This document shows positions 227 to 17,559 of a DNA stretch of 20,931 bases, in pieces. The position numbers and the translations under genes were made by a program. Each line of letters opens with the position of its first letter. Position 1 is the first letter of the stretch. The DNA is taken from the IMG/VR virus record IMGVR_UViG_3300035698_035316, positions 1-20,931 of that record; one strand, written 5' to 3'. Below the pieces are notes generated by a model that saw nothing but the letters and a program-made list of their open reading frames with translations, was not told where the DNA came from and made no database searches. This stretch comes from a virus.

Positions 227-742
227 ATGTTAGTTATAAAAGCAATACAATTCGCAGCTCAAAAACATTTTGGACAAGAACGCAATGATACTTATTTACC
301 TTATATAGTTCATCCTATGACTGTTATGCATCTCACTTCAAAGTATAAAAAAGATTCGAAAAATCTCGAAAATCTTCAATGTGCAGCATTATTACATGAT
401 ACTTTAGAAGATACAGATTGTTCATATTCTGAATTAGAGCGTGAATTTAATCCGATGGTTGCTTCAATCGTTTTGGAATTAACCAATGATGATGAAAAAA
501 TCAAAGAACTTGGCAAGAATGAATATTTAAAAGTTAAAATGATAGGAATGTCAAAATACGCTTTCCTTTTAAAACTTATAGATAGATTAGCTAATGTTTC
601 AGACACTCCCCGTATAAAATACGTTGAAAACACTTTAGATATGATGACCAACCTCAGAAATAATCGTGAAGGTTTAACAGCAACACAATTACGTGTTATA
701 AGTGAGATCGAAAAAGTATGTTTAGAGTTTCGTAAGTTTTAA
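227..742 (+). CDS. RelA/SpoT-type HD hydrolase, small alarmone hydrolase-like (MESH1-like)
   Basis: This 171-residue protein matches the stand-alone HD hydrolase domain of the RelA/SpoT family in length and motif order. It has a YIVHP motif (His29), the paired LLHDTLEDTD motif (His57-Asp58 metal ligands, Glu61-Asp62 that activate water in the family) and KLIDRLANVSD (Asp119 as last metal ligand, Asn123). Family members bind Mn2+ and remove the 3'-pyrophosphate of (p)ppGpp; animal MESH1 also acts on NADPH. No synthetase domain is present, so a hydrolase-only role is likely. It is the first gene after a strong promoter, suggesting early expression. The inferred role is to lower host alarmone and keep growth-type metabolism during infection. 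The HD-hydrolase assignment is strong; the substrate is not proven. Confidence 0.82.
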   Translation: MLVIKAIQFAAQKHFGQERNDTYLPYIVHPMTVMHLTSKYKKDSKNLENLQCAALLHDTLEDTDCSYSELEREFNPMVASIVLELTNDDEKIKELGKNEYLKVKMIGMSKYAFLLKLIDRLANVSDTPRIKYVENTLDMMTNLRNNREGLTATQLRVISEIEKVCLEFRKF

Positions 743-822: not shown

Positions 823-1488
823 ATGATTTTACATATTCCACATTCAAGTGTAAATACGTTAGGACGAAATATTGAAAAGTTTGATATTGATTATTTAACG
901 GATTGGTACACAGATGAATTATTTCAACATACTGATTCAGATAGGGTTGTATTTGATATTTCCCGTTTTGTTTGTGATGTTGAAAGATTTACTGATGACA
1001 AAGAAGAAATGGTCAAAGTGGGACACGGAATTTCTTATACTAAAGGTACTAGAAATAATGATATTGCACCTATTGATAAAGAAGAAATATTAAGTTATTA
1101 TTATAAACATCATACCAAGTTGAATAAATTAACCGCTAAAACCTTAGCATATTTCAATAGTGTTGTTGTGGTTGATTGTCACAGTTTTCCAAAGGATATG
1201 TCAGATTTTGATTTTTGTATAGGGTTCAATGAAGAATCTGCACTTAATAAAGAAATTATTGAGTATATCAGAAATAATGGGTATACAGTAGGTGTCAATT
1301 CGCCTTATTATGGATCTTTAGTACCAACTAATTATATAAATGATTCAAGAGTTGAATCCGTTATGATTGAAGTTAATAAAAAATTATACCTTAATGAAGA
1401 TATGAGTAAATCCCCATATTTTTTTGAACTTAAAAAATTTATAAATAATATTTTAGAAATTATTTCAAAATATGAGAACAGATTATGA
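823..1488 (+). CDS. N-formylglutamate amidohydrolase-like enzyme
   Basis: The 221-residue product carries the usual landmarks of the N-formylglutamate amidohydrolase (HutG/FGase) family. These are an N-terminal LHIPHSS segment, an SRFVCDVERF segment (residues 48-57) matching the family's SR..vDvNRf motif, GHGISYTKGTR (67-77), VVDCHSFP (117-123, with the family's D-H-S signature) and a late MIEVNKKLY segment. Bacterial members hydrolyse N-formyl-L-glutamate in histidine breakdown and are zinc-dependent. A phage has no obvious use for that pathway, so another formyl or amide substrate is possible. AAGGAA lies 10 bases before the ATG. The stop codon overlaps the next start as ATGA, implying translational coupling. 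Confidence 0.72.
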   Translation: MILHIPHSSVNTLGRNIEKFDIDYLTDWYTDELFQHTDSDRVVFDISRFVCDVERFTDDKEEMVKVGHGISYTKGTRNNDIAPIDKEEILSYYYKHHTKLNKLTAKTLAYFNSVVVVDCHSFPKDMSDFDFCIGFNEESALNKEIIEYIRNNGYTVGVNSPYYGSLVPTNYINDSRVESVMIEVNKKLYLNEDMSKSPYFFELKKFINNILEIISKYENRL

Positions 1489-3127: not shown

Positions 3128-3580
3128 ATGAGTTTTAGTGATTTTTTAAAAGAAACTACCCAAAAAGGTACATATGCAGCTGTAAAGTTTTCTGATCTTA
3201 CAAATCATTATTTAATGAACCTAATTAAAGAATTAGATATTGAAAATCCAGTTACAGTGGACGATTTACATTGTACATTATTATACAGTACTAAATATTT
3301 ACCTAATTATAAACCTATTGGTGAAATTAGAGAAATTGCAAGACCAAAAGGCTTTGAAATTTTTGAAGGTGATACTAATTATTTAGTATTATTGTTGAAT
3401 TGTGAATTTTTAACAAAGAGACATAAATATTTAATGAAAAAACATGGAGCAAAATATTCACATGACGAATATAAACCACACATTACATTGAGTACAGATT
3501 ATAGTGGAGCCTTACCAACACTTATACCAAGTGAGTTTATAGTATTAAATAATGAATATTCAGAAGATTTAAACGACTAA
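3128..3580 (+). CDS. 2H phosphodiesterase, Acb1/T4 57B-like anti-CBASS candidate
   Basis: The 150-residue product has the two histidine motifs of the 2H phosphoesterase superfamily: HCTLLYS (His48, Thr50) and KPHITLS (His118, Thr120), 70 residues apart. The length, the N-terminal DFL...YAAVKFSD segment, the LHCTLLYS-KYLPNY context and the HGAKYSHDEYKPHITLS segment resemble T4 57B, now known as Acb1. Acb1 degrades cyclic oligonucleotides made by CBASS immunity and so blocks effector activation. The gene follows gp44 after 9 bases and lies in an early-type block. General RNA 2',3'-cyclic phosphodiesterase activity is the main alternative. The 2H family call is firm; the Acb1 assignment is from remembered similarity and needs alignment. 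Confidence 0.72.
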   Translation: MSFSDFLKETTQKGTYAAVKFSDLTNHYLMNLIKELDIENPVTVDDLHCTLLYSTKYLPNYKPIGEIREIARPKGFEIFEGDTNYLVLLLNCEFLTKRHKYLMKKHGAKYSHDEYKPHITLSTDYSGALPTLIPSEFIVLNNEYSEDLND

Positions 3581-6385: not shown

Positions 6386-6413
6386 GTGTTAATCCTTTTT
6401 TAAATACGTTTAT

Positions 6414-6441
6414 GTTATAATATTCTAATGGGAACATTCAA
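6414..6441 (-). promoter_or_regulatory. Sigma-70-like promoter for the leftward pair
   Basis: On the minus strand TTGAAT (6441-6436) is followed after 16 bp by TATAAC (6419-6414), about 28 bases before the start codon. Both boxes are one or two bases off consensus. It is divergent from the promoter at 6493-6521. Confidence 0.45.
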
Positions 6442-6462
6442 AAAGAATATCACTATTGTTAT

Positions 6463-6470
6463 TATTTATA
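6463..6470 (-). promoter_or_regulatory. T4-late-type promoter box (TATAAATA), leftward
   Basis: The minus strand carries an exact TATAAATA, the -10 element read by the T4 late sigma gp55, about 78 bases before the leftward gene pair. An 8-mer made only of A and T occurs by chance several times in a window this AT-rich, so position is the only support. Confidence 0.3.
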
Positions 6471-6492
6471 CAATAAACAAAAATAATTTATA

Positions 6493-6521
6493 TTGACTTT
6501 TTCACTAATTTATATTATAAT
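6493..6521 (+). promoter_or_regulatory. Near-consensus sigma-70 promoter of the channel/DHH operon
   Basis: TTGACT (6493-6498), a 17-bp spacer and a perfect TATAAT (6516-6521) make this the best sigma-70 match in the window. The predicted transcript begins about 45 bases before the GTG start at 6574 and can cover six genes without an obvious terminator up to 10341. Confidence 0.8.
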
Positions 6522-6573
6522 ACATCTTGAAACATTAAAAACAATAATAAGATTTAACTAAGGAGTGTTACCA

Positions 6574-6915
6574 GTGTCAAGTATCTCAAATAGTATCGTT
6601 TTCCCAAAGAACTTTAAATTGGCCGAATCAACTACGCCAAAGTCTAAAAAAGTTTCTAAGCGAAAAACTCAAAAAGTTGTTAAATTTTCAAAAGTTACCA
6701 TGACAACCCCATTAGTACAATTAAAATCTAACAATCCGTCAACTAGAGAAACACCTAATAAACCTAGATACATTTTACATAATGTTGGTGAATTAGGCAC
6801 AGTAACAGAGAATTTAAGCAATGGTGAGTGTAAATCGCGTAAAGTATATCATATGGGTGAATCAGGAGTATTATGTGAAGATTTAGAAACATTCATTTCA
6901 TGGGAACAATTTTAA
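6574..6915 (+). CDS. Small protein with basic N-terminus, unknown function
   Basis: I choose the GTG at 6574 because AAGGAG (6560-6565) lies 8 bases before it; the GTG at 6565 would overlap that ribosome site. This gives 113 residues. The first 50 are strongly basic and Ser/Thr-rich (KKVSKRKTQKVVKFSK), suggesting nucleic-acid binding or disorder. The C-terminal part, about residues 67-113, looks folded (RYILHNVGELGTV...VYHMGESGVLCEDL) with two similar 'GE.G' beta-turn units that could be a short internal repeat. It is the first gene of the operon with the gp62-like subunit and the K+ channel. The family is not recognised. Confidence 0.6.
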   Translation: MSSISNSIVFPKNFKLAESTTPKSKKVSKRKTQKVVKFSKVTMTTPLVQLKSNNPSTRETPNKPRYILHNVGELGTVTENLSNGECKSRKVYHMGESGVLCEDLETFISWEQF

Positions 6916-6926
6916 AGGAATAACGT

Positions 6927-7304
6927 ATGTTTAAAGTATTTACTAGTGTATTGAACCCAAAATCAAAACCAACAAAATTAGAACTAAATAAGATTTCATC
7001 ATTTATGTTTTGTCGATGGCTGTCATTTAATCCAAGAACTATATTAGCTTCAAACCAAATAAATTACTATTACAATATTCCTGTTGAAAATCAGTATGAA
7101 TTGATTCAAAAAGCGTTTGCGGGTAAGATTAAATATATTCAATTTCCTAAAAAAGTTTCAAATGAATCACATAAATCAGTAGCGTATCTACAAGAACACT
7201 TTAAGATTACTGAAGAAAAAGCAAAAGAATATTTAGAAGAAATAGATAAAGACGAACTGAAAATGATTGTTAACGTTTATTCAGAACGAGATTTAAAACG
7301 TTAA
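6927..7304 (+). CDS. 62: Clamp-loader small subunit, gp62-like (phage clamp-loader A family)
   Basis: The 125-residue product follows the pattern of short phage clamp-loader A subunits. It has a conserved FMFCRWLSF-type segment (residues 26-34), then NPRTILASNQINYYYNIPVENQYELI, where a run of Asn/Tyr precedes the '..QYe.i' helix. A basic stretch ending in a W/F-P-K motif follows (KIKYIQFPK, 67-75), and then a helix-turn with LQEHFKITEEKAKEYLEEI. In T4, gp62 forms the fifth subunit with four gp44 copies. It is shorter than T4 gp62 (187) but similar to small versions in distant T4 relatives. Location away from gp44 is unusual. The assignment is from motif memory, with no alignment available. 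Confidence 0.6.
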   Translation: MFKVFTSVLNPKSKPTKLELNKISSFMFCRWLSFNPRTILASNQINYYYNIPVENQYELIQKAFAGKIKYIQFPKKVSNESHKSVAYLQEHFKITEEKAKEYLEEIDKDELKMIVNVYSERDLKR

Positions 7305-7332
7305 AATATTAACAAATATAAAGAGGATAGAC

Positions 7333-7797
7333 ATGAAAGATTTTTTAGCCCCAATATTAGCACTAACAACTGTCGGACTTATTGGATTTTATGTGGGTGA
7401 TGGTTATTTTGGGGAACGTTTAATTAACGCATTTGAGTGGGTAATATACATACCGATTATTTCACTCACTTTATACGCAATTTCGTTCACATTAATATTG
7501 TTTGTTACTCCAAACAAAATTCCTGTAAAAAATAAAGTACTGTTGAAATACTATACAGTTATTTTCCCATTTATTCATTTATTGCTCATTGATAGAGTTA
7601 TAAGTTCTATTAATTATGATGCCACTTCATTTGCAACTTTGACTGATTTATCATCAATGTTTACATATGGGGTATTTGTAATTTTTCAGATTGCATATTT
7701 TCAATACAAAAGTGTTAAATATGGCGATGATAATAAATCATTAAAAGATGAATTTAAAAAACAGTTAAAACAATACAAGGATTCAATTGATGGATAA
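7333..7797 (+). CDS. Multi-pass membrane protein, unknown function
   Basis: The 154-residue product has about four hydrophobic segments, near residues 5-22, 35-59, 75-93 and 108-124. A charged Lys-rich C-terminal tail of about 28 residues follows that is likely cytoplasmic and helical. No catalytic motif is visible. It starts after AGAGGA and overlaps the next gene, the DHH phosphoesterase, by 8 bases. It is two genes upstream of the potassium channel. It could be a channel partner, a holin-like protein or a superinfection-exclusion factor. None of these is shown by sequence. Confidence 0.6.
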   Translation: MKDFLAPILALTTVGLIGFYVGDGYFGERLINAFEWVIYIPIISLTLYAISFTLILFVTPNKIPVKNKVLLKYYTVIFPFIHLLLIDRVISSINYDATSFATLTDLSSMFTYGVFVIFQIAYFQYKSVKYGDDNKSLKDEFKKQLKQYKDSIDG

Positions 7798-8737
7798 CTC
7801 TCAAGAAATTATTATTTTTGGACATAATGACTTAGACCAAATGGGTTGTAGTCTAAATATTGAATATAAATTTCCAACAGTTCAAAAGAAATATTTCCAC
7901 ACCAATTATTATAATATTCCTGAAAGAATCACGGAAATTATTAATTATACTGAACAAAATAATATTAAGCATATTCTAATAACCGATGTAACATTTTCAG
8001 TTAATAAAGATTCACTAATGCGTTTATATGAATTGACTAATAATGGTGTACACTTAACACTAATTGACCATCATATGCAATCTGAAGGTTTTTTTGATGA
8101 TATGTCTAATATGAAAGTGATACATGATACTACTAAATCAGCTACTAAACTGTGTTTTGAGTATTTTTCGAATTCGGGCAATCCAAACCTCGAAAAGTTA
8201 ACATACATTATTGATGTATATGATTTATGGCAGAAAAACGATGTTATTTTCGATTTTTCGCAGGATTTGAATAATTATTTTTGGGAAGTTAATGATATTA
8301 CTCAGTTAACAAAAGATATTGTAGCTAACGGTTATAAATTACCTACTAACTTCAAAACTGTTGTTAATGAAATAAACGAGAAATGTCGAACTACTGTTGA
8401 AGATTTTGAGTCAAGGAAACTTATTCAAAGAAGTGATGGTATTACACTATGTTTTATTGATGAATATTTTAATCATGTAATGTTAAATGAAATGAAAAAT
8501 GGTCAAAACTTCGTTATTGGAATTAATAGTTATGGAGTAATTCGTGTCAGAATTCGCCAAGAAGCTCCATTTGGAGATGATAAGATTAATAAACTTAGAG
8601 AATTATTAACAGGTAATGCAGAATATGGACATAAATATGCCTTTACATTTCCTTTAAAGGGTAACGTTAGTTTTAAAACATTAATGAAAGAAGCCCAAAG
8701 AGTTGTTGAATCCATTGAAAAGGTTTTTTACATCTAA
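7790..8737 (+). CDS. DHH-family phosphoesterase (NrnA/GdpP-like)
   Basis: The start is the ATG at 7790, 8 bases after AAGGA (7777-7781), giving 315 residues. The DHH signature set is present: motif I FGHNDLDQMG (His12, Asp14, Asp16), motif II ITDVTFS (Asp66), motif III LIDHHM (Asp93-His94-His95) and motif IV IIDVYD (Asp142/Asp145). A C-terminal region with a degenerate DHHA1 glycine/histidine motif, GNAEYGHKYA, follows. These enzymes use two Mn2+ ions to cleave phosphodiesters. Substrates in the family include nano-RNA, pAp, pGpG and c-di-AMP. The DHHA1 GGGH element reads EYGH, so substrate choice may differ. The gene lies in an operon with a K+ channel, and in many bacteria c-di-AMP controls K+ channels. 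That parallel is suggestive only. Confidence 0.82.
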   Translation: MDNSQEIIIFGHNDLDQMGCSLNIEYKFPTVQKKYFHTNYYNIPERITEIINYTEQNNIKHILITDVTFSVNKDSLMRLYELTNNGVHLTLIDHHMQSEGFFDDMSNMKVIHDTTKSATKLCFEYFSNSGNPNLEKLTYIIDVYDLWQKNDVIFDFSQDLNNYFWEVNDITQLTKDIVANGYKLPTNFKTVVNEINEKCRTTVEDFESRKLIQRSDGITLCFIDEYFNHVMLNEMKNGQNFVIGINSYGVIRVRIRQEAPFGDDKINKLRELLTGNAEYGHKYAFTFPLKGNVSFKTLMKEAQRVVESIEKVFYI

Positions 8738-8752
8738 GCCGAAGGTCTGAGT

Positions 8753-9742
8753 ATGAGAGATTTTATTTTTAGCGATGGGTACTTTTTTAAGTTCCTTAGA
8801 ACATTTTTATTTGCTGTATTGTCGATGTTTATTTTTACATTGCTAATTATTCAAATTGAAGACTTTAGTTATGGTGACGCTTGGTGGTTGGCATTAAGTT
8901 CAATCACTACGGTTGGTTATGGTGACCTTTCAGCAAGTACTGGGTTAGGCAGAACGATTTCCGTTATATTCCTATACATACCATCATTGGTGTTGATTGG
9001 AGTTGTGTCAGGTAATATAATTGAATTTTTTATCGAGAAAAGAGAGAATAAGAAGATGGGAAAAGTTAGTTTTGAAAATATGCAAAATCATATTGTCATA
9101 GTAAATGTACCAGATATTAACACGGAAAAATACTTAACAATGATGAAAGACCAAATTGATAATTCAAAAAATCTAAAAGGTAAAAAAGTCATCATTTTAA
9201 GTGACCATTATTCAGGTATTGGATTACCGGCATCTTTACGTGATTGGAAATATGTGGATGGTGTTGGACTAACAAAATCAGATTTGTTAAAAACGGGGTT
9301 TAAATTCGCTGATTACATTTTCATTTTTGGAGTTTTTGTGAAGTGTGATAGCGATACACTAATGACATTAATGAATATTAAAAAGATTGGAACAACTGCA
9401 CGTATTATTAGTGAATATACGGATAATGAAGGTAAAGAACTATTATTAGAAAATGGTTGTGATAATGTTATTCGTCAAGTTCGGGCATATCCTGAATTGA
9501 TTGTTCGAACCGCTGATATACCTGGAAGTGAAAAGATTTTTGAAAATTTATTCGATTTCAATGGGCAATCTATTACTGTTATTCCTAATCAAAAGGAACA
9601 AACATGGAAAGAAATTTGCACTGAATTTATTACTCTTGAAAAAGGTATTCCACTCGGTTATAATACAGATAATGATGTTATATTAAATCCTAAACACGAC
9701 ATCACTATTGGTAATGGTGTATCAATTTTCGTAATGCTTTGA
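8753..9742 (+). CDS. Two-helix potassium channel with cytoplasmic RCK domain (MthK-like)
   Basis: The 329-residue product begins with a transmembrane helix (about 14-35) and a pore helix, then the canonical K+ selectivity filter TTVGYGD (52-58) and a second transmembrane helix (about 69-92). A linker leads to an RCK/TrkA-N Rossmann-type domain from about residue 112. That domain shows the order of strands seen in MthK: NHIVIVNV, KVIILSD, a GLTKSDLLKTGFKFADYIFIFG unit, the DSDTLMTLMNIKKIG helix and RIISEY. A smaller TrkA-C-like region occupies about 270-329. The first Rossmann loop lacks GxGxxG, so NAD binding is doubtful and an ion or another ligand may gate it. It should act as a tetramer in the host inner membrane. 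AAGG lies 7 bases before the ATG. Confidence 0.9.
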   Translation: MRDFIFSDGYFFKFLRTFLFAVLSMFIFTLLIIQIEDFSYGDAWWLALSSITTVGYGDLSASTGLGRTISVIFLYIPSLVLIGVVSGNIIEFFIEKRENKKMGKVSFENMQNHIVIVNVPDINTEKYLTMMKDQIDNSKNLKGKKVIILSDHYSGIGLPASLRDWKYVDGVGLTKSDLLKTGFKFADYIFIFGVFVKCDSDTLMTLMNIKKIGTTARIISEYTDNEGKELLLENGCDNVIRQVRAYPELIVRTADIPGSEKIFENLFDFNGQSITVIPNQKEQTWKEICTEFITLEKGIPLGYNTDNDVILNPKHDITIGNGVSIFVML

Positions 9743-9750
9743 GGTAAAAG

Positions 9751-10341
9751 ATGAAACCAATTTTAACAACTAAAACGGTAAAAGTATATACGTGTCCACA
9801 TTGTGAAGATAATTTCTCAAGTATATCTGAGGTTCTTTCACATATAGATACTTGTAAATTATATATAACTAAAGCAAATGCCACACAAAAATTAAAAGCA
9901 GAGTTAAGTGATATTCAAAAAACATCCAAATCTGTACATGAATTTATTGTTGGGTTAGTTGATGCTTTTGCAAAGGTCGATGTACATATAACATTTACTG
10001 AATACCCATCTTCGTATGGTAGATGTAGTAATTCTCATAGTTCACCCAGAGGATATAAGACTTGTTGGGGTGAAGGTGATTTAGAAACACCTAAATATTA
10101 TCCAGGATGGCATGGTATTTGGAAAGGGCATATTACAATTGGTGATGGCAACCCTCTGAACTTTGATAAATTTGAAATGAGCACTATTAGTCAATTTATT
10201 CCAGCAGTTAAGACTGGCTCAGGTCGTCCAGGACAAAATTTTGAAATCAGTGGAGTGTTGTTTCTATATGATTTTGATGCAATGCATGACGAGTATTTAA
10301 TAAGTGGTAAATTAGTTACAACTTATTGTCAGGAATATTAA
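9751..10341 (+). CDS. Zinc-finger protein of unknown function
   Basis: The 196-residue product has an N-terminal C2H2-like finger at about residues 15-35: CPHC, then an LSHIDTC segment, giving Cys-x2-Cys and His-x3-Cys ligands. A helical linker of about 60 residues follows. The C-terminal domain is rich in Gly, Tyr and Trp (PGWHGIWKGHITIGDGNP) and is not recognised; an additional Cys/His-rich part (GRCSNSHSSPRGYKTCWGEG) could hold another metal. GAGGT overlaps the preceding stop and lies just before the ATG. As last gene in the channel/DHH operon it may act in regulation or bind nucleic acid, but no function can be named. Confidence 0.6.
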   Translation: MKPILTTKTVKVYTCPHCEDNFSSISEVLSHIDTCKLYITKANATQKLKAELSDIQKTSKSVHEFIVGLVDAFAKVDVHITFTEYPSSYGRCSNSHSSPRGYKTCWGEGDLETPKYYPGWHGIWKGHITIGDGNPLNFDKFEMSTISQFIPAVKTGSGRPGQNFEISGVLFLYDFDAMHDEYLISGKLVTTYCQEY

Positions 10342-10351
10342 GATACCGTAA

Positions 10352-10700
10352 AACGCTATTTTTGAACGGTATGATAATTTAAAAAATACTGTAATACTAA
10401 ATAACGATGAATTAAAAGAAATATCTAATTTGATTTTGAAATTAAATAAGTACAAAGATCAGTTGAATGGATTACAAACTAAATACACATCTCATTTAAC
10501 AGCTGCGTTTAATAAGAATTACGGTATTAAATTCCCAACACCACCAAGTGCTTTCTTAAAAGTTAATGAAAAAATATAAGACGAGAATACAAGAAACGCA
10601 AACGTATCCAACACATGATGATACAAACATTCATAATGAACTTAAAGTATTAGTTGAATCAGTTAACAATCAAATAAAAGTAATGCCGAAATATATATAG
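10352..10700 (+). pseudogene. Broken gene: start-less frame plus one-base shift at an A6 run
   Basis: Between the zinc-finger gene and the helicase promoter, a frame is open from 10352 to TAA at 10577-10579 (75 codons). It has coding-like composition (NLILKLNKYKDQLNGLQ) but no ATG, GTG or TTG near its beginning. A second frame opens at ATG 10566 and runs 44 codons to TAG at 10698-10700. Removing one A from the A6 run at 10569-10574 joins the two into a single protein (VNEK then YKTRIQET). The missing start plus the shift suggest a decayed gene; a homopolymer sequencing error or a small real 44-codon gene are alternatives. Nothing else is visible in this 463-base stretch apart from the repeat and promoter region after 10718. 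Confidence 0.45.
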
Positions 10701-10717
10701 ACAGGTTTCCTGAAAAT

Positions 10718-10749
10718 TTTGTTTAAAAGTTCAACATATTTTAAACAAA
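10718..10749. repeat. Operator-like 11-bp inverted repeat upstream of the helicase gene
   Basis: TTTGTTTAAAA (10718-10728) and its exact reverse complement TTTTAAACAAA (10739-10749) are separated by 10 bases, so the half-sites are 21 bp apart, two turns of the helix. They sit just upstream of two TATAAT boxes that have no -35 partner. This geometry fits a dimeric activator or repressor site. An mRNA hairpin is less likely since the repeat precedes the predicted start of transcription. Confidence 0.5.
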
Positions 10750-10756
10750 TTCACTA

Positions 10757-10774
10757 TATAATAAATCCTATAAT
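10757..10774 (+). promoter_or_regulatory. Two -10 boxes before the replication block, lacking -35 elements
   Basis: TATAAT occurs at 10757-10762 and again at 10769-10774. No recognisable -35 box lies 16-18 bp upstream of either, while an inverted repeat occupies that region. This resembles T4 middle promoters, which keep the -10 box and rely on an activator bound around -30. The activator here is unknown. Confidence 0.45.
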
Positions 10775-10804
10775 AGAAACAAATGAATCAAATGAAGGAT
10801 TACA

Positions 10805-11524
10805 ATGTCAGAACACATAACAAATTTTGAAAATATTTTAATTAATAAACTTATCAATTCAGGCGAGTTTTTTGGTAAAGTATTACCAATTATCAAACCA
10901 AAATATTTCAATAACCCAGGAAATCAAGAAGTTTTCACCCTCATCAAAGGGTATTATTCAGAATACAGAGATATTCCATCATTAACTGAATTAGTTGCAC
11001 AAGTAAAAAATGTTGCAAATTCTGAAATCCGATCTGAAATAGTTAAATCTCTTAAAGAAGCAAATTCTGTTTCAGAAGTAACTAATATCAAATTCATGAT
11101 TAAAGAAACAGTTTCATGGATTCAAGATGCCTTATATACAGAAGCTTTGATGAAAGGTTCTGATGGATTGATGAAGAAAGATGAAAAACTGAAATTAGAA
11201 GCTAAACAGTTAATGGAGGAGATGTCAAAAGTTTCTGTTGACTCTGAGCTTGGGCTAGATTTTGATGATATTGATGAAATGATTGCGTATTATTCAGAAA
11301 GAATGTTAGGTATCAGGACGCAACATAAAGAACTTAATAAACGTTTAGGTGCTGGTTTTTTACCTGAAACATTATCACTAATATTAGCGGCATCCGGAAT
11401 TGGTAAATGTAGTAAATCAACTGATTATATAAATATATTTTTAGATGTCACCCATTACGATATTTACAAGGAAAAATTAGATGACATCAGAAGTAAGAAG
11501 GATATTAAAACGAAAGCTATTTAA
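10805..11524 (+). CDS. 41: Replicative helicase gp41, N-terminal fragment fused to a 38-residue N-intein
   Basis: The 239-residue product comprises an N-extein of 201 residues and an N-intein of 38. The extein has the DnaB-like N-terminal helical domain and linker of T4-type helicases and runs into the ATPase domain, ending in LILAASGIGK, the first seven residues of Walker A. Then comes Cys202 (TGT at 11408), the first intein residue. The chain stops at 11522 in all three senses: extein incomplete, intein incomplete, and next gene already begun at 11481. Alone it cannot bind ATP. With the fragment at 12706-14079 it would rebuild a 526-residue helicase (T4 gp41 has 475). AAGGA precedes the ATG. 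The helicase call is strong because of the C-terminal partner. Confidence 0.85.
   Translation: MSEHITNFENILINKLINSGEFFGKVLPIIKPKYFNNPGNQEVFTLIKGYYSEYRDIPSLTELVAQVKNVANSEIRSEIVKSLKEANSVSEVTNIKFMIKETVSWIQDALYTEALMKGSDGLMKKDEKLKLEAKQLMEEMSKVSVDSELGLDFDDIDEMIAYYSERMLGIRTQHKELNKRLGAGFLPETLSLILAASGIGKCSKSTDYINIFLDVTHYDIYKEKLDDIRSKKDIKTKAI
11408..11521 (+). other. N-part of an atypically split intein (38 residues)
   Basis: The segment starts with the nucleophile Cys1 directly after GIGK and continues CSKSTDYINIFLDV, matching block A in position. It lacks block B, which is found instead in the C-part. Canonical split inteins (DnaE, gp41-1) have N-parts of about 90-100 residues, so this belongs to the rarer class with short N-parts, as in AceL-TerL and the metagenomic VidaL inteins. 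The chain is charged and Lys-rich at its end (DDIRSKKDIKTK), possibly for electrostatic pairing with the acidic start of the C-part. Confidence 0.8.
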
Positions 11525-12752
11525 AGATTTGAAATGGAATTTTACAGAATTGAAAGAATTGTATAATTTTGTTTCAAAAACAACTAATTACACAAATTCA
11601 ACATATCAACGTATATATAATTTTAAACTGAATAATGTGAAGTTTTGGTATAGAAGATTAAAAAGACTTCAAACAAGGGGTAGTAACGTAAACGATATGC
11701 TGAATTTTTATTTAAGATATGGGAAAAATGGGGTACTTAAATATAGGAAATATTTGGATAAAGTTCGGGAATCATCTTCTAAAGAAGGTCTTATTGCTCG
11801 GTTCGGCTACGAAAAAGCCAATCGCATCAATCACGCAAGAGGGAAATCATTTAGGAATTCTGATATTCAACGTCAAAATTCATTGAAATTAAAGATAAAA
11901 AAGATGGAAACACCTGAGAAGTATGTTGGTATGTTGCCGACACAGTTAGAATATTATTTAAACAGAGGGTTTTCAGAAAGTGAAGCGAAAACCGAGTTGA
12001 GTAAAAGGCAACGAACCTTTTCTTTGGAAACATGCATTAAAAAATACGGGAAAATAGAGGGAACTGTTGTGTTTAACGAAAGACAACGTAAATGGATGAA
12101 CACGTTGAATAGTAAAACACAAAATGAAATAGATGACGTTAATAGACGTAAAAATGCATGTCTAATTCGAAATGATGAAACAAAGGACGCATATTTTAAA
12201 CGGCTATGTAATATTGGAAAAGTTTTGATTTACGATGACGAGGATTTGAGAAAATATATTGTTGAAGAATTAACAAAATCTAAATGGAAATATCTTACTA
12301 GAGATGAATTCGTTAACAAACTTCCGTTTTTTGGTAATGCGAAGACCCATCCTTGCCAAATATTAGAAACGTTAAGTTTTAAATTCCCAAATAAAAATCA
12401 AATATTTAAAAACGGTAGATGCTACACCCTAACTGTACCCGAAGGATATCTAAGGTCTTCTATTGAGATAGACTTCTATTTCAATTTAAAGGATAGAAAT
12501 GTACCGTTCACTTTAGAGAAACTATACTTAAACCAAACAAAGCATAAAACGGATTTCTTTATCGAAGAATTTGATTTGTACATTGAAATCGCAGGTACTT
12601 TGAATAATACTGAATATAATGATAAAATGAAAATGAAAGAGTCTAGATATGACGCTTTGATTTTAACCCCGAAATTAATTAAACCATTTTTTAAAAGGAT
12701 TGACAATGCAGGATTTAAAGGGATTAAAAGTTACATACGAGGAATTATTTGA
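11481..12752 (+). CDS. Freestanding nuclease between the helicase halves (putative homing endonuclease)
   Basis: The 423-residue protein is read in a third frame and overlaps the end of the N-intein by 44 bases and the start of the C-intein by 47. AAGGA lies 8 bases before its ATG. Residues about 70-215 hold basic helical modules of a type common in phage homing enzymes, with repeated YG...G...F..R elements (YLNRGFSESEAK, KRQRTFSLETCIKKYGK, NERQRKWMNTLNSK). The C-terminal part has the acidic core of a Vsr-like/PD-(D/E)xK fold: EIDFYF (Glu329), KTDFF (Asp358), DLYIEIAG (Glu369), where the usual Lys or Asp after the Glu is replaced by Ala. Dassa and colleagues described a Vsr-like EDxHD homing family in fractured split-intein genes; this is a probable relative. 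Target and activity are unproven. Confidence 0.7.
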   Translation: MTSEVRRILKRKLFKDLKWNFTELKELYNFVSKTTNYTNSTYQRIYNFKLNNVKFWYRRLKRLQTRGSNVNDMLNFYLRYGKNGVLKYRKYLDKVRESSSKEGLIARFGYEKANRINHARGKSFRNSDIQRQNSLKLKIKKMETPEKYVGMLPTQLEYYLNRGFSESEAKTELSKRQRTFSLETCIKKYGKIEGTVVFNERQRKWMNTLNSKTQNEIDDVNRRKNACLIRNDETKDAYFKRLCNIGKVLIYDDEDLRKYIVEELTKSKWKYLTRDEFVNKLPFFGNAKTHPCQILETLSFKFPNKNQIFKNGRCYTLTVPEGYLRSSIEIDFYFNLKDRNVPFTLEKLYLNQTKHKTDFFIEEFDLYIEIAGTLNNTEYNDKMKMKESRYDALILTPKLIKPFFKRIDNAGFKGIKSYIRGII

Positions 12753-13101
12753 GCTTTTAGAATTTTCCCAAACAGATTTTAATAAGGCACAGTATAGTGA
12801 TAAACCATTATACGTAGAATCTCCATCAGGTTATGTAAAAATTCGTGGTGGAGTTATCAAAAACGATTTAGATATGCATAATTTAAAATTTGATGATGGT
12901 TCCGAATGTAACGTTGCGGACACTCACATATTTTCCGTTGAAGGGCAAGAAGTATTTGCAAAAGACGCAGAATTCGTGGATAGTAAACACGGTCGTTTGA
13001 ATATTACTGAAAGGTTAGACATTGGCAAACATCATGGATATGATATCAATATTGATGCCCCACATTGGTATTATGCACCGAATGGTGCGATTTATCACAA
13101 C
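12706..13101 (+). other. C-part of the split helicase intein (132 residues, holds blocks B, F and G)
   Basis: Block B is visible as ECNVADTHIFSV, with the conserved His but Ala in place of the usual Thr of TxxH. Blocks F and G are GYDINIDAPHWYYAPNGAIYHN followed by Ser+1, with the standard penultimate His and terminal Asn. Total intein length is 170 residues (38 + 132), a mini-intein size without an internal endonuclease. The nuclease function is instead in the separate gene at 11481-12752. The first residues are acidic (YEELFELLE), opposite to the basic end of the N-part. Confidence 0.85.
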
Positions 13102-14079
13102 TCGTTATTAATGACTGATTTAATTTCAGGAATGGTTAAAGACAATAAAAATATTCTTTTAGTTTCTCTTGAAATGGCTGATAAAGAAATTATGAAACGG
13201 GTTCATGCCAATGCAATGGATTTACCTATTAATTCTTTAATAGATTTGAGTAAAACTGATGGTGAGATGAAACAAATCATGGAAGATGATCCTATGCACG
13301 TTAGGGTTACAAAAGAAATGGTTAAAAGTGCTTATAATAAAATTAAGTCATCAGGAACTTGTGGTAAGTTCTTTGTAAAAGATTATCCAACTGGTTCCTT
13401 TTCACCATTAATGCTTGAACAATTAGTTGAATCATATAAGATTGAAAAGGGTATTGAATTTGATGCAGTTTTTGTTGATTATTTAGGTATTATGAAGTCA
13501 GATTTGATTTCACCAAGTGCCGGTTTATATTCTTATGTTAAAAGTATTGCTGAAGAATTACGTTCTGTTGGAGGTAAGTTAAAATTACCAATTATTAGTG
13601 CAAGTCAGTTAAATCGGAGCGCAGTAAATAATACCGATGATGCAGATAACTCATCTGTTTCAGATTCACTTGGTTCAGTAATGACAGCTGATTGGATGCT
13701 TTTTTTACTTCAAGATGATGAAATGAAAGAACGTGGGGAGATTGTTGCTAAGTGTACTAAAAACAGGTTCAACGGTCGTACAGATACGTGGATGATGAAT
13801 ATTGACTATAGTCATATGAGATTTTCAGATATGCTGATTCAAGATGCCACCAGTATTAACGAAGTTTCATCATTTAACACATCGAAGGGGCTTGATGATG
13901 ACTTTGGAATTGTAACTGCAGATAAACAAAAACATGCAGAAAACTATGCAAATACTGAAGTTAAGAACATTGTTAGAAATGATTATGAAATTCTAAATAA
14001 ATCAACACCGCCCGAAGCTAAAGACCCTTTTAATAACGATATTAACGATATTTTCGCCGAATTAGGTATTGGGGATTGA
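12706..14079 (+). CDS. 41: Replicative helicase gp41, C-terminal fragment preceded by a C-intein
   Basis: The ATG at 12706 is chosen because AAAGGA (12694-12699) lies 6 bases before it, whereas an upstream TTG at 12700 touches that site. The product has 457 residues: a 132-residue C-intein (12706-13101) and a 325-residue C-extein beginning with Ser+1 (TCG at 13102). The extein supplies the rest of a DnaB-type RecA ATPase: the Ser that completes Walker A, LLVSLEMA, Walker B AVFVDYLGIM, the SASQLNRS motif and the KNRFNGRTDTW arginine-finger region. After trans-splicing the P-loop reads AASGIGKS. The role is 5'-3' unwinding at the fork with primase and polymerase. It is followed by the DUF3310-like and polymerase genes. 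Confidence 0.88.
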   Translation: MQDLKGLKVTYEELFELLEFSQTDFNKAQYSDKPLYVESPSGYVKIRGGVIKNDLDMHNLKFDDGSECNVADTHIFSVEGQEVFAKDAEFVDSKHGRLNITERLDIGKHHGYDINIDAPHWYYAPNGAIYHNSLLMTDLISGMVKDNKNILLVSLEMADKEIMKRVHANAMDLPINSLIDLSKTDGEMKQIMEDDPMHVRVTKEMVKSAYNKIKSSGTCGKFFVKDYPTGSFSPLMLEQLVESYKIEKGIEFDAVFVDYLGIMKSDLISPSAGLYSYVKSIAEELRSVGGKLKLPIISASQLNRSAVNNTDDADNSSVSDSLGSVMTADWMLFLLQDDEMKERGEIVAKCTKNRFNGRTDTWMMNIDYSHMRFSDMLIQDATSINEVSSFNTSKGLDDDFGIVTADKQKHAENYANTEVKNIVRNDYEILNKSTPPEAKDPFNNDINDIFAELGIGD

Positions 14080-14137: not shown

Positions 14138-14377
14138 ATGTCTGATACAGAAAACAATGGTGGTTCAACGGATTATTACCGTGTTGATAAAACATGGGAA
14201 ATGGCACAAGATGTTATTGAATCAAGGGAAATGAATTTTTCACAAGGTAATATATTTAAGGTAGCGTTCACTTTCAATATGGGTAGACATGATGCCACTA
14301 ATTATACCCGTGAATTGAACAAGATTGTGTATTTTGCTAATAGAGAATTGAAAAGAATAGAAAAAGGTGCCGAATGA
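14138..14377 (+). CDS. DUF3310-like small protein
   Basis: The 79-residue product has the pattern of the DUF3310 domain common in phages: an N-terminal DYYR segment, then WEMAQDVIESREMNFSQGNIFKVAFTFNMGRHDA, where the motif 'f..GN..Ky..R.g.Kd' is typical, and a final helix with NRELKRIEKG. DUF3310 occurs in T7 gp1.7, a nucleotide kinase linked to dideoxythymidine sensitivity, but most members are uncharacterised. Some expected Arg/Lys residues are changed (AFTFNMGRHD instead of ..R.GRKD). It lies between helicase and polymerase and overlaps the polymerase start (ATGA), so a role in nucleotide supply or the replisome is plausible but inferred. AAGGA lies just before the ATG. Confidence 0.6.
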   Translation: MSDTENNGGSTDYYRVDKTWEMAQDVIESREMNFSQGNIFKVAFTFNMGRHDATNYTRELNKIVYFANRELKRIEKGAE

Positions 14378-17300
14378 GTAAATTATTTGAAGGAACATAC
14401 CGCGATGGATATGTAACATACGAACGTTACTTTGATGAGGTTTTAAATGATTCTTTTGTAAGTAAAGTATCTGTGCCGAGTGAGCATTATGTTGAAGATA
14501 GAGAAGGTAAATTCGAGTATTTATTAGATTCGAATGTTCGGTTATCTAAACGTTATGGTAAACCTACTGAAAGTATTACGTATGGTAAAAACACTCAAGA
14601 CTCAATTCATATTCGGGATAATTATTGGAAGTCAGAAAATAGTTTATACAATATGAATCCAAGGAAGTGGTACATAGATATTGAAACAACTGCACACAAT
14701 AAAATTAATGTATTTGAAGTTGCAGAAGAAGTTGTTTTGATGCAGATTTATGACTCCGTCACTGAAACGTTAATATTATTAGGTACACGTGATTGGACGG
14801 GGCAAGAAAATTATGAATATGATTTTAAAGTTAGATATATTAATTGTAAAAATGAAATTCAACTATTTGAAACATATTTCACATTGATTGCAAGAATGAA
14901 ACCACTAATCGTAATGGGGTGGAATACTAATGGTTACGATTATCCATACATGTACAATAGAGCAAAGAAATTAGGATTAGACACGAATAAATTCAGTCCA
15001 TTCAACAAAGTCAAATTAGATATGAAGACAGTTAAATTTAGGGACACATTTAAGTTGATTGCTGATGGCATAATCTATATGGATTACTTAGAAATGTATC
15101 AAAAATATACGTTTAAACCCCGGGCAAGTTATTCGCTTGATAACATTTCATTTATAGAACTTGGTGACAGAAAAATTAATCATGATATGTATAGTACGTT
15201 TGATGGTATGCGAACAGGTGAAAATTACATTTTTCCTGAAACTGAACCTGAAGATGAATATGATAAAAAAATGTATAACTTACAAATGCAATACAAAAAC
15301 AACCCAACTAAAGAGTTAAAGGAAAAAATTCATGATTTAGCCAACGATTTATTTGTTCATTATGGCTGTATTGATACGCATCTTGTTAAAAAATTAGATG
15401 ATAAACTACTTCTAAGTAATGTTTTAATCATGATTGCAAGTAAAATGGGTGTGAACATCAATGATGCCATGGGCACAGTAAAACCTTGGAGTTCTTATAT
15501 AAACAACGTTGCTTATTTAGAAAAAATGATTTTGCCGAACTTAGATGTTGATGAATCAGAAATTCCAATCAAAGGTGGTTATGTTGCAGAACCACAAAGT
15601 GGTAAACACGATTGGGTTGTTTCAGTTGATATTGATTCAGCGTATCCAAACTTATCAATGCGTGGATTTAATATGAGTGCTGAAACATATGTTAAACCAA
15701 AAGATTTACCACCTGAAATGAGAGATTTAAATTTAGCGTATTTTAATAATGAAGATGAAGAAGCCCGTTTTGAAATGTATTTAAAAGAACCTGAAATATT
15801 TGAACGCTATTCACAATTAGCAGAAGAACATGGGTTTTCTTTAGGTATTAATGGTGCAGTCTTTTCCCAAAAAACACTAGGAATAATTCCTCGACTAGTC
15901 AAAGAAATATATATTGATAGACAAAAACAAAAAGCCGAAATGAATGAATGGGCCAAAAAAGCCGAAAATTTAAAAGAAACAATGGGGAATAATAAAAAAC
16001 TTATTGAAGAATATAAACATTCCGTTTATATGGCACAACAATGTGACACAGGACAAAAAGTGGCTAAAGTTTTAATCAACTCACTTTACGGTTGTTTAGG
16101 TAATAAGTATTTTAGATTGTTCAACGAAAATATTGCAAGGGCAGTCACTGGCAATACCCGTTTCTATATTCATTTACTTAATCTTAGAATCAACAATTAT
16201 TTAAAAGAAAAAACAGGTATCGACAAAGATTTTGTGGTTTATAACGATACGGATAGTGTTGTTGGGTCAACGGTAGTTAGGACATCACAAGGTGACATTA
16301 AAATTGAAGACTTATATGATGTAGTTCCTGGTGAAATAACTGTAAGGGATTCTGATAATTTTATTAAAAAACCTTTTATTAAAATAAGGGCGGATAGTGT
16401 AAGTGCTGATAAATGTCTTCAACAAAAAAATATAAAATATATTATGAAGCATAAAGTTAAAAAAAGAATGTTTAAAATTAAACATAAAGATTCCGAAGTT
16501 ATAGTTACCGAAGATCATTCAATCATTATTTCAAGATGTAATGAATATATTTCAGTGAAACCATTAGATATTATTAAAGGTGATAAAATTATTTGTATAA
16601 ATGAAAAAATGAATGATTTAAAAGAGTTTGAAGAGTTTGAAGAGTTTGAAGAGTTTGAAGTAATTGATTTAGGCATACAAGAAAATTGGGTATATGATAT
16701 TGAAGTTGAAGATAATCACAATTTCTTTGGTAATAATATACTTGTGCATAACAGTGCGTATATCACGTTAGCTGATGTTGTTAATAAATATTATAAGGGT
16801 GAAAAAACCGCGGTTAAAATAACTGAATTCTTAGACAATTTAATTAAAGCTGAATTAATGCCGATTGTGCAAAGTTGCAATGATGAGCTTTCAAAATGTT
16901 TAAATGCTTATGAAAGTGAAGCAATTAGTACATCACGTGAAGCTATTGCGGATAAAGCAGTATTCCTTAATAAAAAGAAACAATATTTCATGCGAATATT
17001 TGATTTAGAGGGTGTGAAATATACTGAAAATGACCCATATATTAAAAAAATGGGGATTGATATTATCAAATCTGGAACCCCAGAATTTGTTAAAACCCAT
17101 TTGAATCATAGTATAGAAATTATTCTTGATAGTGATGAAAAAGAAATGCGGGAATGGTTGAAGACTGTTAAAGAACAGTTCATGCATGTTCCAATTGTGG
17201 AAATTAGTAAAGGAACAGGTGTTTCAAGAACCGATTATGATTTAAGTGAAAAGAGTGTGCCTATGAATAGTAGAGCAGCGATTTCGCATAACGTCTATTT

Positions 17301-17559
17301 AAATTCTAATTCGGAATTATCGCATAGATATAATATTATCACACCTGCTGATAAAATAAAAATTGCGTATATGATAACACCAAACCCACTAGGTCAGAAT
17401 GTTATGGGATTTGTTGACCCAAAATTTGCCGAAATGTTTCGTGAGTATGTTGATTATGACACGTGTTGGGAAAAATACCTCATAAAACCATTAGATTTTA
17501 TGATTTCACCACTTAATTGGGACATAAATAAAACTACTGAAACACTAGAAGGATGGTAA
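14374..17559 (+). CDS. 43: Family B DNA polymerase gp43 with an in-frame intein
   Basis: The precursor has 1061 residues: N-extein 1-627, intein 628-793, C-extein 794-1061. The spliced enzyme of 895 residues almost equals T4 gp43 (898). The proofreading exonuclease has Exo I YIDIETT (Asp102, Glu104), Exo II WNTNGYDYP and Exo III around HYGCIDTHLV. The polymerase has motif A DIDSAYPNL (Asp419), motif B KVLINSLYG (Lys565, Asn569, Tyr572) and motif C YNDTD^S (Asp625, Asp627) at the splice junction. It copies DNA at the phage fork with the gp45 clamp, loaded by gp44/gp62. Because the intein separates both metal-binding aspartates from the following Ser, the precursor is probably inactive. AAAGGTG precedes the start, coupled to the DUF3310-like gene. 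Confidence 0.95.
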   Translation: MSKLFEGTYRDGYVTYERYFDEVLNDSFVSKVSVPSEHYVEDREGKFEYLLDSNVRLSKRYGKPTESITYGKNTQDSIHIRDNYWKSENSLYNMNPRKWYIDIETTAHNKINVFEVAEEVVLMQIYDSVTETLILLGTRDWTGQENYEYDFKVRYINCKNEIQLFETYFTLIARMKPLIVMGWNTNGYDYPYMYNRAKKLGLDTNKFSPFNKVKLDMKTVKFRDTFKLIADGIIYMDYLEMYQKYTFKPRASYSLDNISFIELGDRKINHDMYSTFDGMRTGENYIFPETEPEDEYDKKMYNLQMQYKNNPTKELKEKIHDLANDLFVHYGCIDTHLVKKLDDKLLLSNVLIMIASKMGVNINDAMGTVKPWSSYINNVAYLEKMILPNLDVDESEIPIKGGYVAEPQSGKHDWVVSVDIDSAYPNLSMRGFNMSAETYVKPKDLPPEMRDLNLAYFNNEDEEARFEMYLKEPEIFERYSQLAEEHGFSLGINGAVFSQKTLGIIPRLVKEIYIDRQKQKAEMNEWAKKAENLKETMGNNKKLIEEYKHSVYMAQQCDTGQKVAKVLINSLYGCLGNKYFRLFNENIARAVTGNTRFYIHLLNLRINNYLKEKTGIDKDFVVYNDTDSVVGSTVVRTSQGDIKIEDLYDVVPGEITVRDSDNFIKKPFIKIRADSVSADKCLQQKNIKYIMKHKVKKRMFKIKHKDSEVIVTEDHSIIISRCNEYISVKPLDIIKGDKIICINEKMNDLKEFEEFEEFEEFEVIDLGIQENWVYDIEVEDNHNFFGNNILVHNSAYITLADVVNKYYKGEKTAVKITEFLDNLIKAELMPIVQSCNDELSKCLNAYESEAISTSREAIADKAVFLNKKKQYFMRIFDLEGVKYTENDPYIKKMGIDIIKSGTPEFVKTHLNHSIEIILDSDEKEMREWLKTVKEQFMHVPIVEISKGTGVSRTDYDLSEKSVPMNSRAAISHNVYLNSNSELSHRYNIITPADKIKIAYMITPNPLGQNVMGFVDPKFAEMFREYVDYDTCWEKYLIKPLDFMISPLNWDINKTTETLEGW
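16255..16752 (+). other. Contiguous mini-intein in polymerase motif C (166 residues)
   Basis: The intein begins with Ser1 (AGT at 16255) after YNDTD and ends with HN before Ser+1 (AGT at 16753), so splicing restores DTDS-AYI. Block A is SVVGSTVVRTSQGDIKIEDLYD, block B is VIVTEDHSIII with TxxH, and blocks F/G are WVYDIEVEDNHNFFGNNILVHN. There is no LAGLIDADG or other endonuclease domain; a (EFE) repeat lies where one is usually inserted. The site is the 'pol-c' position used by polymerase inteins in archaea and viruses. The nucleophile is Ser at both ends. Confidence 0.92.
16624..16659 (+). repeat. Four exact 9-bp repeats coding EFE in the polymerase intein
   Basis: GAGTTTGAA is repeated four times without change and in frame, encoding EFE four times, between intein blocks B and F. 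Perfect identity of the copies indicates a recent slippage expansion in a loop that tolerates length change. Confidence 0.9.

Follow-up and report, generated by a model that had tools for sequence, protein, structure and literature searches.

A 2TM-RCK potassium channel gene in the replication block of a T4-like phage

Analysis of a 20,931-base virus record, the whole of which is referred to here as the window, showed that a T4-like phage carries a gene for a 329-aa potassium channel of the 2TM-RCK type (two membrane helices followed by an RCK module). The gene is an optional element in a variable part of an otherwise conserved replication block. The unusual element is the RCK module in a T4-like phage, whereas potassium channels in T4-like phages are already known. 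It is nearly certain that the product is a K+-type channel with an RCK domain and very likely that it conducts and is gated. The whole explanation that we lean toward, with some reserve, is a ligand-gated K+ channel carried as cargo that tunes host K+ and membrane potential. The features of the gene and its surroundings are listed in Table 1.

Table 1. Features of the channel gene and of the flanking replication block (positions in the window)
Feature	Position	Strand	Evidence
gp62-type clamp-loader subunit, left anchor of syntenic block	6927..7304	+	phrog_225 2.9e-15
154-aa membrane protein, second insertion here	7333..7797	+	ORF; hydropathy; locus comparison
DHH phosphoesterase, 15 bases upstream of channel	7787..8737	+	Pfam; homology; fold
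2TM-RCK potassium channel gene, 329 aa	8753..9742	+	ORF; Pfam; PDB phmmer; AlphaFold2; VIA-align
Outer membrane helix, aa 10-36	8780..8860	+	DSSP of model; hydropathy
K+ selectivity filter TTVGYGD, aa 52-58	8906..8926	+	read directly; conserved in family alignment A4
Inner membrane helix and linker, aa 64-101	8942..9055	+	DSSP of model; alignment
Internal ATG (M102)	9056..9058	+	read directly
RCK N-lobe, about aa 112-245, no GxGxxG	9086..9487	+	Pfam; model; VIA-align; alignment
RCK C-lobe, about aa 247-329	9491..9739	+	model strands and helices; aligned up to MthK residue 322
gp41-type replicative helicase, two pieces with an ORF between, right anchor	10805..14079	+	phrog_19 1.3e-45; DnaB N-domain; alignment

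Sequence and predicted structure of the channel

The channel ORF, as read directly, starts with ATG, has GAAGG upstream, and keeps an intact frame; GAAGG is a plausible Shine-Dalgarno sequence. The gaps to the upstream and downstream neighbors are 15 and 8 bases, respectively. No terminator-like site was found within positions 6400 to 11000 of the window, and a promoter scan was uninformative (23 found compared to 32.9 expected).

An earlier note on this DNA, made from the letters alone, had described the product as a perfect K+ filter with two membrane helices and an RCK module, and all three elements are borne out at a level far above chance. The TTVGYGD filter is present, and it is flanked by hydrophobic stretches at aa 9 to 40 and 63 to 95 that agree with the two helices of the model. 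In Pfam, Ion_trans_2 matched above its cut-off (3.6e-9) and Slo-like_RCK at its cut-off (24.1 bits compared to 24); NCBIfam gave only a weak pore match (20.6 bits compared to a cut-off of 300), and PADLOC gave no match for the channel. Three lines of evidence bear on the RCK module. First, the best phmmer match among all PDB sequences was MthK (3.6e-12, aa 21 to 263). Second, the RCK part has homologues in 80 bacterial loci, described below. Third, the AlphaFold2 monomer model, built from 55 family sequences (mean pLDDT of 89, pTM of 0.79), retrieved MthK first in Foldseek (2.9e-19), then Slo1 and GsuK, and VIA-align placed model residues 12 to 329 on residues 18 to 322 of the MthK chain (Z of 18.1, rmsd of 5.5, 280 aligned). 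The RCK assignment is therefore secure.

MthK, the Ca2+-gated K+ channel of Methanothermobacter, has a tetrameric pore and an octameric gating ring. The phage channel resembles it in having a pore, two helices, and both RCK lobes in one chain (329 compared to 336 aa), but it is phage-borne, only 20 to 24% identical, and lacks two of the three Ca2+ ligands. These ligands, which we take to be D184, E210, and E212 in MthK, align with F195, E221, and T223, only one of which is acidic. E221 is invariant in 54 bacterial relatives, and in the E212 column Glu is not among the commonest residues of the bacterial clade either. Because F195 and T223 are nonacidic, Ca2+ gating as in MthK is unsupported, and by these comparisons the phage channel is MthK-like in layout and not a Ca2+-gated MthK orthologue. 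The absence of GxGxxG from the Rossmann loop, which the earlier note had taken as a sign that the ligand may differ from NAD, was confirmed, but it is a trait of the whole clade and not a peculiarity of the phage: none of the 55 aligned family members has the motif, and the usual loop is N-T-P or N-S-P. NAD gating through GxGxxG was therefore dropped, and throughout the clade the classic NAD mode is improbable.

MthK makes free RCK subunits from an internal start, and M102 of the phage channel presumably lines up near the residue where those subunits begin. Translation of a free RCK subunit might begin at the M102 codon, which is given here as a lead only; M102 is not conserved in the relatives, where the alignment column is mostly K or R.

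Bacterial relatives and other phages with RCK channels

A search of a genome collection with the RCK-part alignment matched 153 stretches, 82 of which encode a relative; 80 were kept. Going by record titles, all but one of these 80 belong to Pseudomonadota, the exception being a Desulfuromonadales bacterium, and all 80 combine the 2TM-RCK layout with a T[VIT]G[YF]GD filter. The full-length identity of the phage channel to this clade reaches 34.6% at most. Of the 51 positions with 90% or higher conservation in 54 relatives, it keeps 35, the filter included, compared to a median of 98% and a minimum of 83% for the bacterial members. With a likeness of up to 35% over the full length and the GLPxSLR-like and RxVRAYPE motifs in common, the phage channel is probably a divergent, outlying member of the proteobacterial 2TM-RCK clade. 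It differs from the clade in its long branch, its shorter N terminus, the lack of operon partners, and Ser78, a position at which 51 of 54 bacterial relatives have Gly. In a 28-row tree it was outermost in the clade (support 96/92) on a branch of 2.09 that drew a long-branch warning; in an 82-row tree its branch was 4.5 and it had no settled place.

For 60 of the 80 bacterial loci we examined the neighboring genes, 20 Marinomonas near-copies being left out. Spermidine-synthase-like genes were found in 34 loci, DUF2170 in 32, PspA in 29, and DUF350 in 27; a DUF4178-like neighbor, named by gene order and likeness with no Pfam match, was found in 34. The four Marinomonas loci that were kept have none of these genes. 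Such partners are thus common in the clade but do not define it. Operons of the PspA/DUF350/spermidine-synthase-like type are described in Ravi 2024 (PMC11237479), in which the passages covered on the second operon group name no channel. The 20.9-kb window contains no PspA, spermidine synthase, DUF350, or glutathionylspermidine synthase gene, and DUF2170 appeared at an E value of 0.51 only, so the link to a stress operon is drawn entirely from the relatives. Among the bacterial members, those of Marinomonas (for example, L131 and L146) and some of Methylococcales (L191, L199, and L202) have the filter TTGYGD instead of TVGYGD. One distant member (L315, 14872-16053) is located on an 882-kb Vibrio parahaemolyticus plasmid, directly after an RNA ligase gene.

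Phage relatives with an RCK module were rare. When 50,697 phage records were searched with the channel by tblastn, three matched, namely Roseophage DSS3_VP1 twice and an Enterococcus contig whose 240-aa protein lacks an RCK-sized tail. The DSS3_VP1 channel as the query matched its own two records, a DSS3_PM1 fragment, one likely bacterial contig, and short stretches of Streptomyces phages. A bacterial relative (L132) matched six phage records and a 282-aa RCK channel (L218) matched 37, none of them covering 80% of the query. We did not count one Salmonella record (H43, H51) of the phage collection, as it is likely a bacterial contig. In IMG/VR, the channel alone matched 7 stretches and the RCK-only alignment A2 matched 17, none of which encodes a relative. 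Alignment A4 gave 99 relatives, of which 80 were kept, and an RCK-sized tail (more than 150 aa behind the filter) was present in 3 of these 80 channel loci (L247, L252, and L218). L247 is 75,087 bases long, the same length as DSS3_VP1, and L252 is a contig of the DSS3_VP1 type. The L218 channel (9875-10723) has a shortened RCK and lies on a 545-kb contig of doubtful viral nature. A TTVGYGD scan of IMG/VR, a check proposed in the earlier note, returned at least 120 loci, with the motif in frame in 120 of the 120 listed (L006 to L125). Four of the 120 have more than 200 aa behind the motif and read as phage structural proteins, that is, chance matches; two with shorter tails read like a glutamate-receptor-type channel (L023, 163 aa) and a DNA methyltransferase (L029, 147 aa).

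Phage K+ channels so far are small bare pores of unknown use. Kcv of the chloroviruses is likewise a viral K+ pore, but its viruses are algal and, to our knowledge, it lacks such a cytoplasmic domain. The channels of Phycodnavirus members are given as 79 to 156 aa, and those of phages, T4-like vibriophages included, as 117 to 259 aa in the main text of Greiner 2018 (PMC6163359), where the word RCK does not occur. The pore-only channels of the KVP40 group are similar to the window channel in being phage-encoded, in having a G(Y/F)GD filter, and, for some, in belonging to T4-like phages, whereas the window channel has 329 aa and an RCK domain. A 215-aa channel of Vibrio phage D69 is matched by 36 Vibrio phage records, including KVP40, and some Atacama viruses encode potassium channels, as stated without further detail in a passage of PMC8269230. 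The view that the channel is unusual for a T4-like phage thus stands for its RCK module, rare among the IMG/VR channel loci, and not for K+ channels as such, which are published and found in these Vibrio phage records. A literature search found no phage RCK channel, an absence that is unproven as subscription articles were mostly outside its scope.

The RCK module itself is not unique to the window, as it is also found in Roseophage DSS3_VP1. The DSS3_VP1 channel (QGH74676.1, annotated as hypothetical) has two membrane helices and an RCK-like cytoplasmic part, as does the phage channel of L252. Both differ from the window channel in that they share about 20% identity with it, belong to an unrelated phage, and fall in a glutathionylspermidine-synthase/PspA group, with the glutathionylspermidine synthase gene directly downstream (channel and synthase together at L002 4866-7025 in DSS3_VP1 and at 36-2380 in L252). 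They group with Rhizobium and Photobacterium channels (support 100/98), and the annotated genes of Rhizobium NXC14 run in the order PspA, YjfI, ion channel, YjfK, DUF350, DUF1190, and glutathionylspermidine synthase. RCK channels thus occur in two phage groups that are unrelated to each other, and by sequence these channels fall in two PspA/polyamine-enzyme-linked groups, an association made through their relatives.

The gene within the replication block

The window carries a T4-type clamp loader, a family-B polymerase, a DnaB-type helicase, and a terminase large subunit. Among the matches listed for the polymerase, Vibrio phages of the phiTY18/Va1 group came first at about 42%, and the DHH protein shares about 50% identity with its Vibrio phage counterpart. 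The channel gene is within 1.5 kb of the clamp-loader subunit and about 1 kb from gp41.

Using the window proteins as queries, we searched 25 loci, of which 14 (12 from IMG/VR and 2 Vibrio phages) hold both DHH and gp41. The channel was found in none of the 25 and so in none of the 14 comparable DHH-gp41 blocks, which means that it is optional and nonessential to this phage type. It was also absent from the whole records of nine relatives, a count that carries little weight by itself. The interval between DHH and gp41 varies among the related blocks. It includes small ORFs, what reads as a ThyX-like gene in L211, what reads as a DNA-methyltransferase-like gene in L309 and L310, and an Acb1-like gene in L004 and L005. 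A relative of the 154-aa membrane protein (31% over 104 aa, 1.5e-6) is located behind DHH in L303, with no channel.

Proposed role and alternatives

In the mechanism that we favor, four 2TM subunits, the layout of which comes from sequence and model, would assemble into a conducting K+-selective pore, and the RCK domains would form a cytoplasmic gating ring that is opened or shut by binding a small ligand or ion. The gene would have been acquired long ago from the proteobacterial clade, whose members are often beside PspA, DUF350, and spermidine-synthase-like genes, and would be kept as accessory cargo in the variable DHH-gp41 stretch. The T4 replication genes are early or middle genes, and the channel is probably made at that stage of infection because it lies within the replication cluster. 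Its most likely effect would be to keep the K+ and membrane potential of the host within limits that favor the phage; a possible benefit would be an envelope steadied under infection stress, or hindrance to the DNA entry of a second phage. On balance, we consider it probable that the channel acts early or middle on the host ion state rather than in lysis, and the particular link to envelope stress is doubtful.

Gating would imply that the phage requires K+ to flow at one specific time or upon one specific cue, and the ligand of the RCK ring would reveal the host state that the phage watches. The RCK channels of the two phage groups offer a testable way to connect phage infection with K+, with polyamines, and with the unsettled function of PspA/polyamine operons. 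A broader proposal, which we rate as rather unlikely, is that on two or more occasions phages captured the channel part of PspA ("phage shock")/polyamine operons, drawing on different channel groups, the T4-like phage from the spermidine-synthase-linked clade and the roseophages together with glutathionylspermidine synthase. The RCK ring would then sense a polyamine-linked metabolite, letting the phage set K+, membrane potential, and the host envelope-stress response.

The same protein could instead be a subunit that joins a host 2TM-RCK channel or gating ring and disables or biases the PspA/polyamine-linked envelope-stress system. This fits with the genes that adjoin the nearest bacterial relatives and with the second phage lineage having a channel of another PspA-linked group. 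However, the filter and most conserved positions are kept, needlessly for a mere poison subunit, and an identity of no more than about 35% to any bacterial member found is low for coassembly with a host channel; such interference seems improbable.

To a similar degree, we doubt that the gene is a passenger without present use and on its way out. Its absence from the 14 other blocks would agree with this, as would changes at family-invariant residues (T70S, N227G, R230L, and P242Q). Against it stand 329 open codons at about 30% GC, an intact filter, the plausible Shine-Dalgarno sequence, and a phage-like composition. The GC and GC3 of the channel gene (0.311 and 0.233) resemble those of the clamp loader (0.305 and 0.195) and of part of the polymerase (0.312 and 0.238), and GC is even along the whole window; the channel is therefore probably an old resident.

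Holin timing depends on membrane energization, so a K+ flux that sets the membrane potential could also set the moment of holin firing, and the channel would then be a late lysis helper. The location of the gene argues against lysis timing, which the earlier note had suggested as a possible role beside host depolarization, a block to secondary infection, and turgor adjustment: it is surrounded by replication genes (clamp loader, DHH, gp41, and polymerase), and the terminase is on the strand opposite to the channel and these genes. We hold out only a slim chance for it.

A c-di-AMP module, in which the DHH phosphoesterase would cut c-di-AMP and the RCK channel would sense it, is very unlikely. 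The two genes are adjacent, and other bacteria have DHH enzymes that handle c-di-AMP and RCK domains that do so too. However, DHH occurs near gp41 without the channel in 14 of 14 related blocks, and the idea of DHH and channel as one module was dropped for this reason. The DHH protein had no sequence match in the PDB; its model (pLDDT of 84, built from three sequences) was nearest in fold to a Helicobacter protein, PAP phosphatase, RecJ, and the pGpG enzyme PggH, and no c-di-AMP enzyme was among the best 50 fold matches listed. A search of IMG/VR with the DHH protein alone gave no relative, and alignment A3, used instead, gave three loci. Nor did the literature search find an article joining c-di-AMP, DHH, phage-encoded, and potassium.

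Finally, bacterial DNA misfiled as viral can practically be dismissed even though the channel family is bacterial, because the gene is flanked by T4-type clamp-loader and DHH genes on one side and gp41 on the other, and in 14 related phage blocks these flanking genes follow the same order.

Other genes of the window were also read. An Anti-CBASS protein Acb1 family gene is present at 3128-3580 (+) (Pfam 2.5e-31), and a relative is also found in Vibrio phages, between DHH and gp41. At 227-742 (+) is an HD protein with a likeness to the hydrolase portion of RelA/SpoT (NCBIfam spoT_relA 6.2e-20), possibly a phage (p)ppGpp hydrolase, and at 823-1488 (+) is a member of the N-formylglutamate amidohydrolase family (Pfam FGase 2.7e-32) with no PHROG match. 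The family-B DNA polymerase at 14374-17559 (+) has an intein (Pfam Intein_splicing 2.2e-11). The two gp41 ORFs are separated by a 423-aa ORF and have intein-like ends at the P-loop, an arrangement that we take to resemble a split-intein "fractured gene" with a homing endonuclease.
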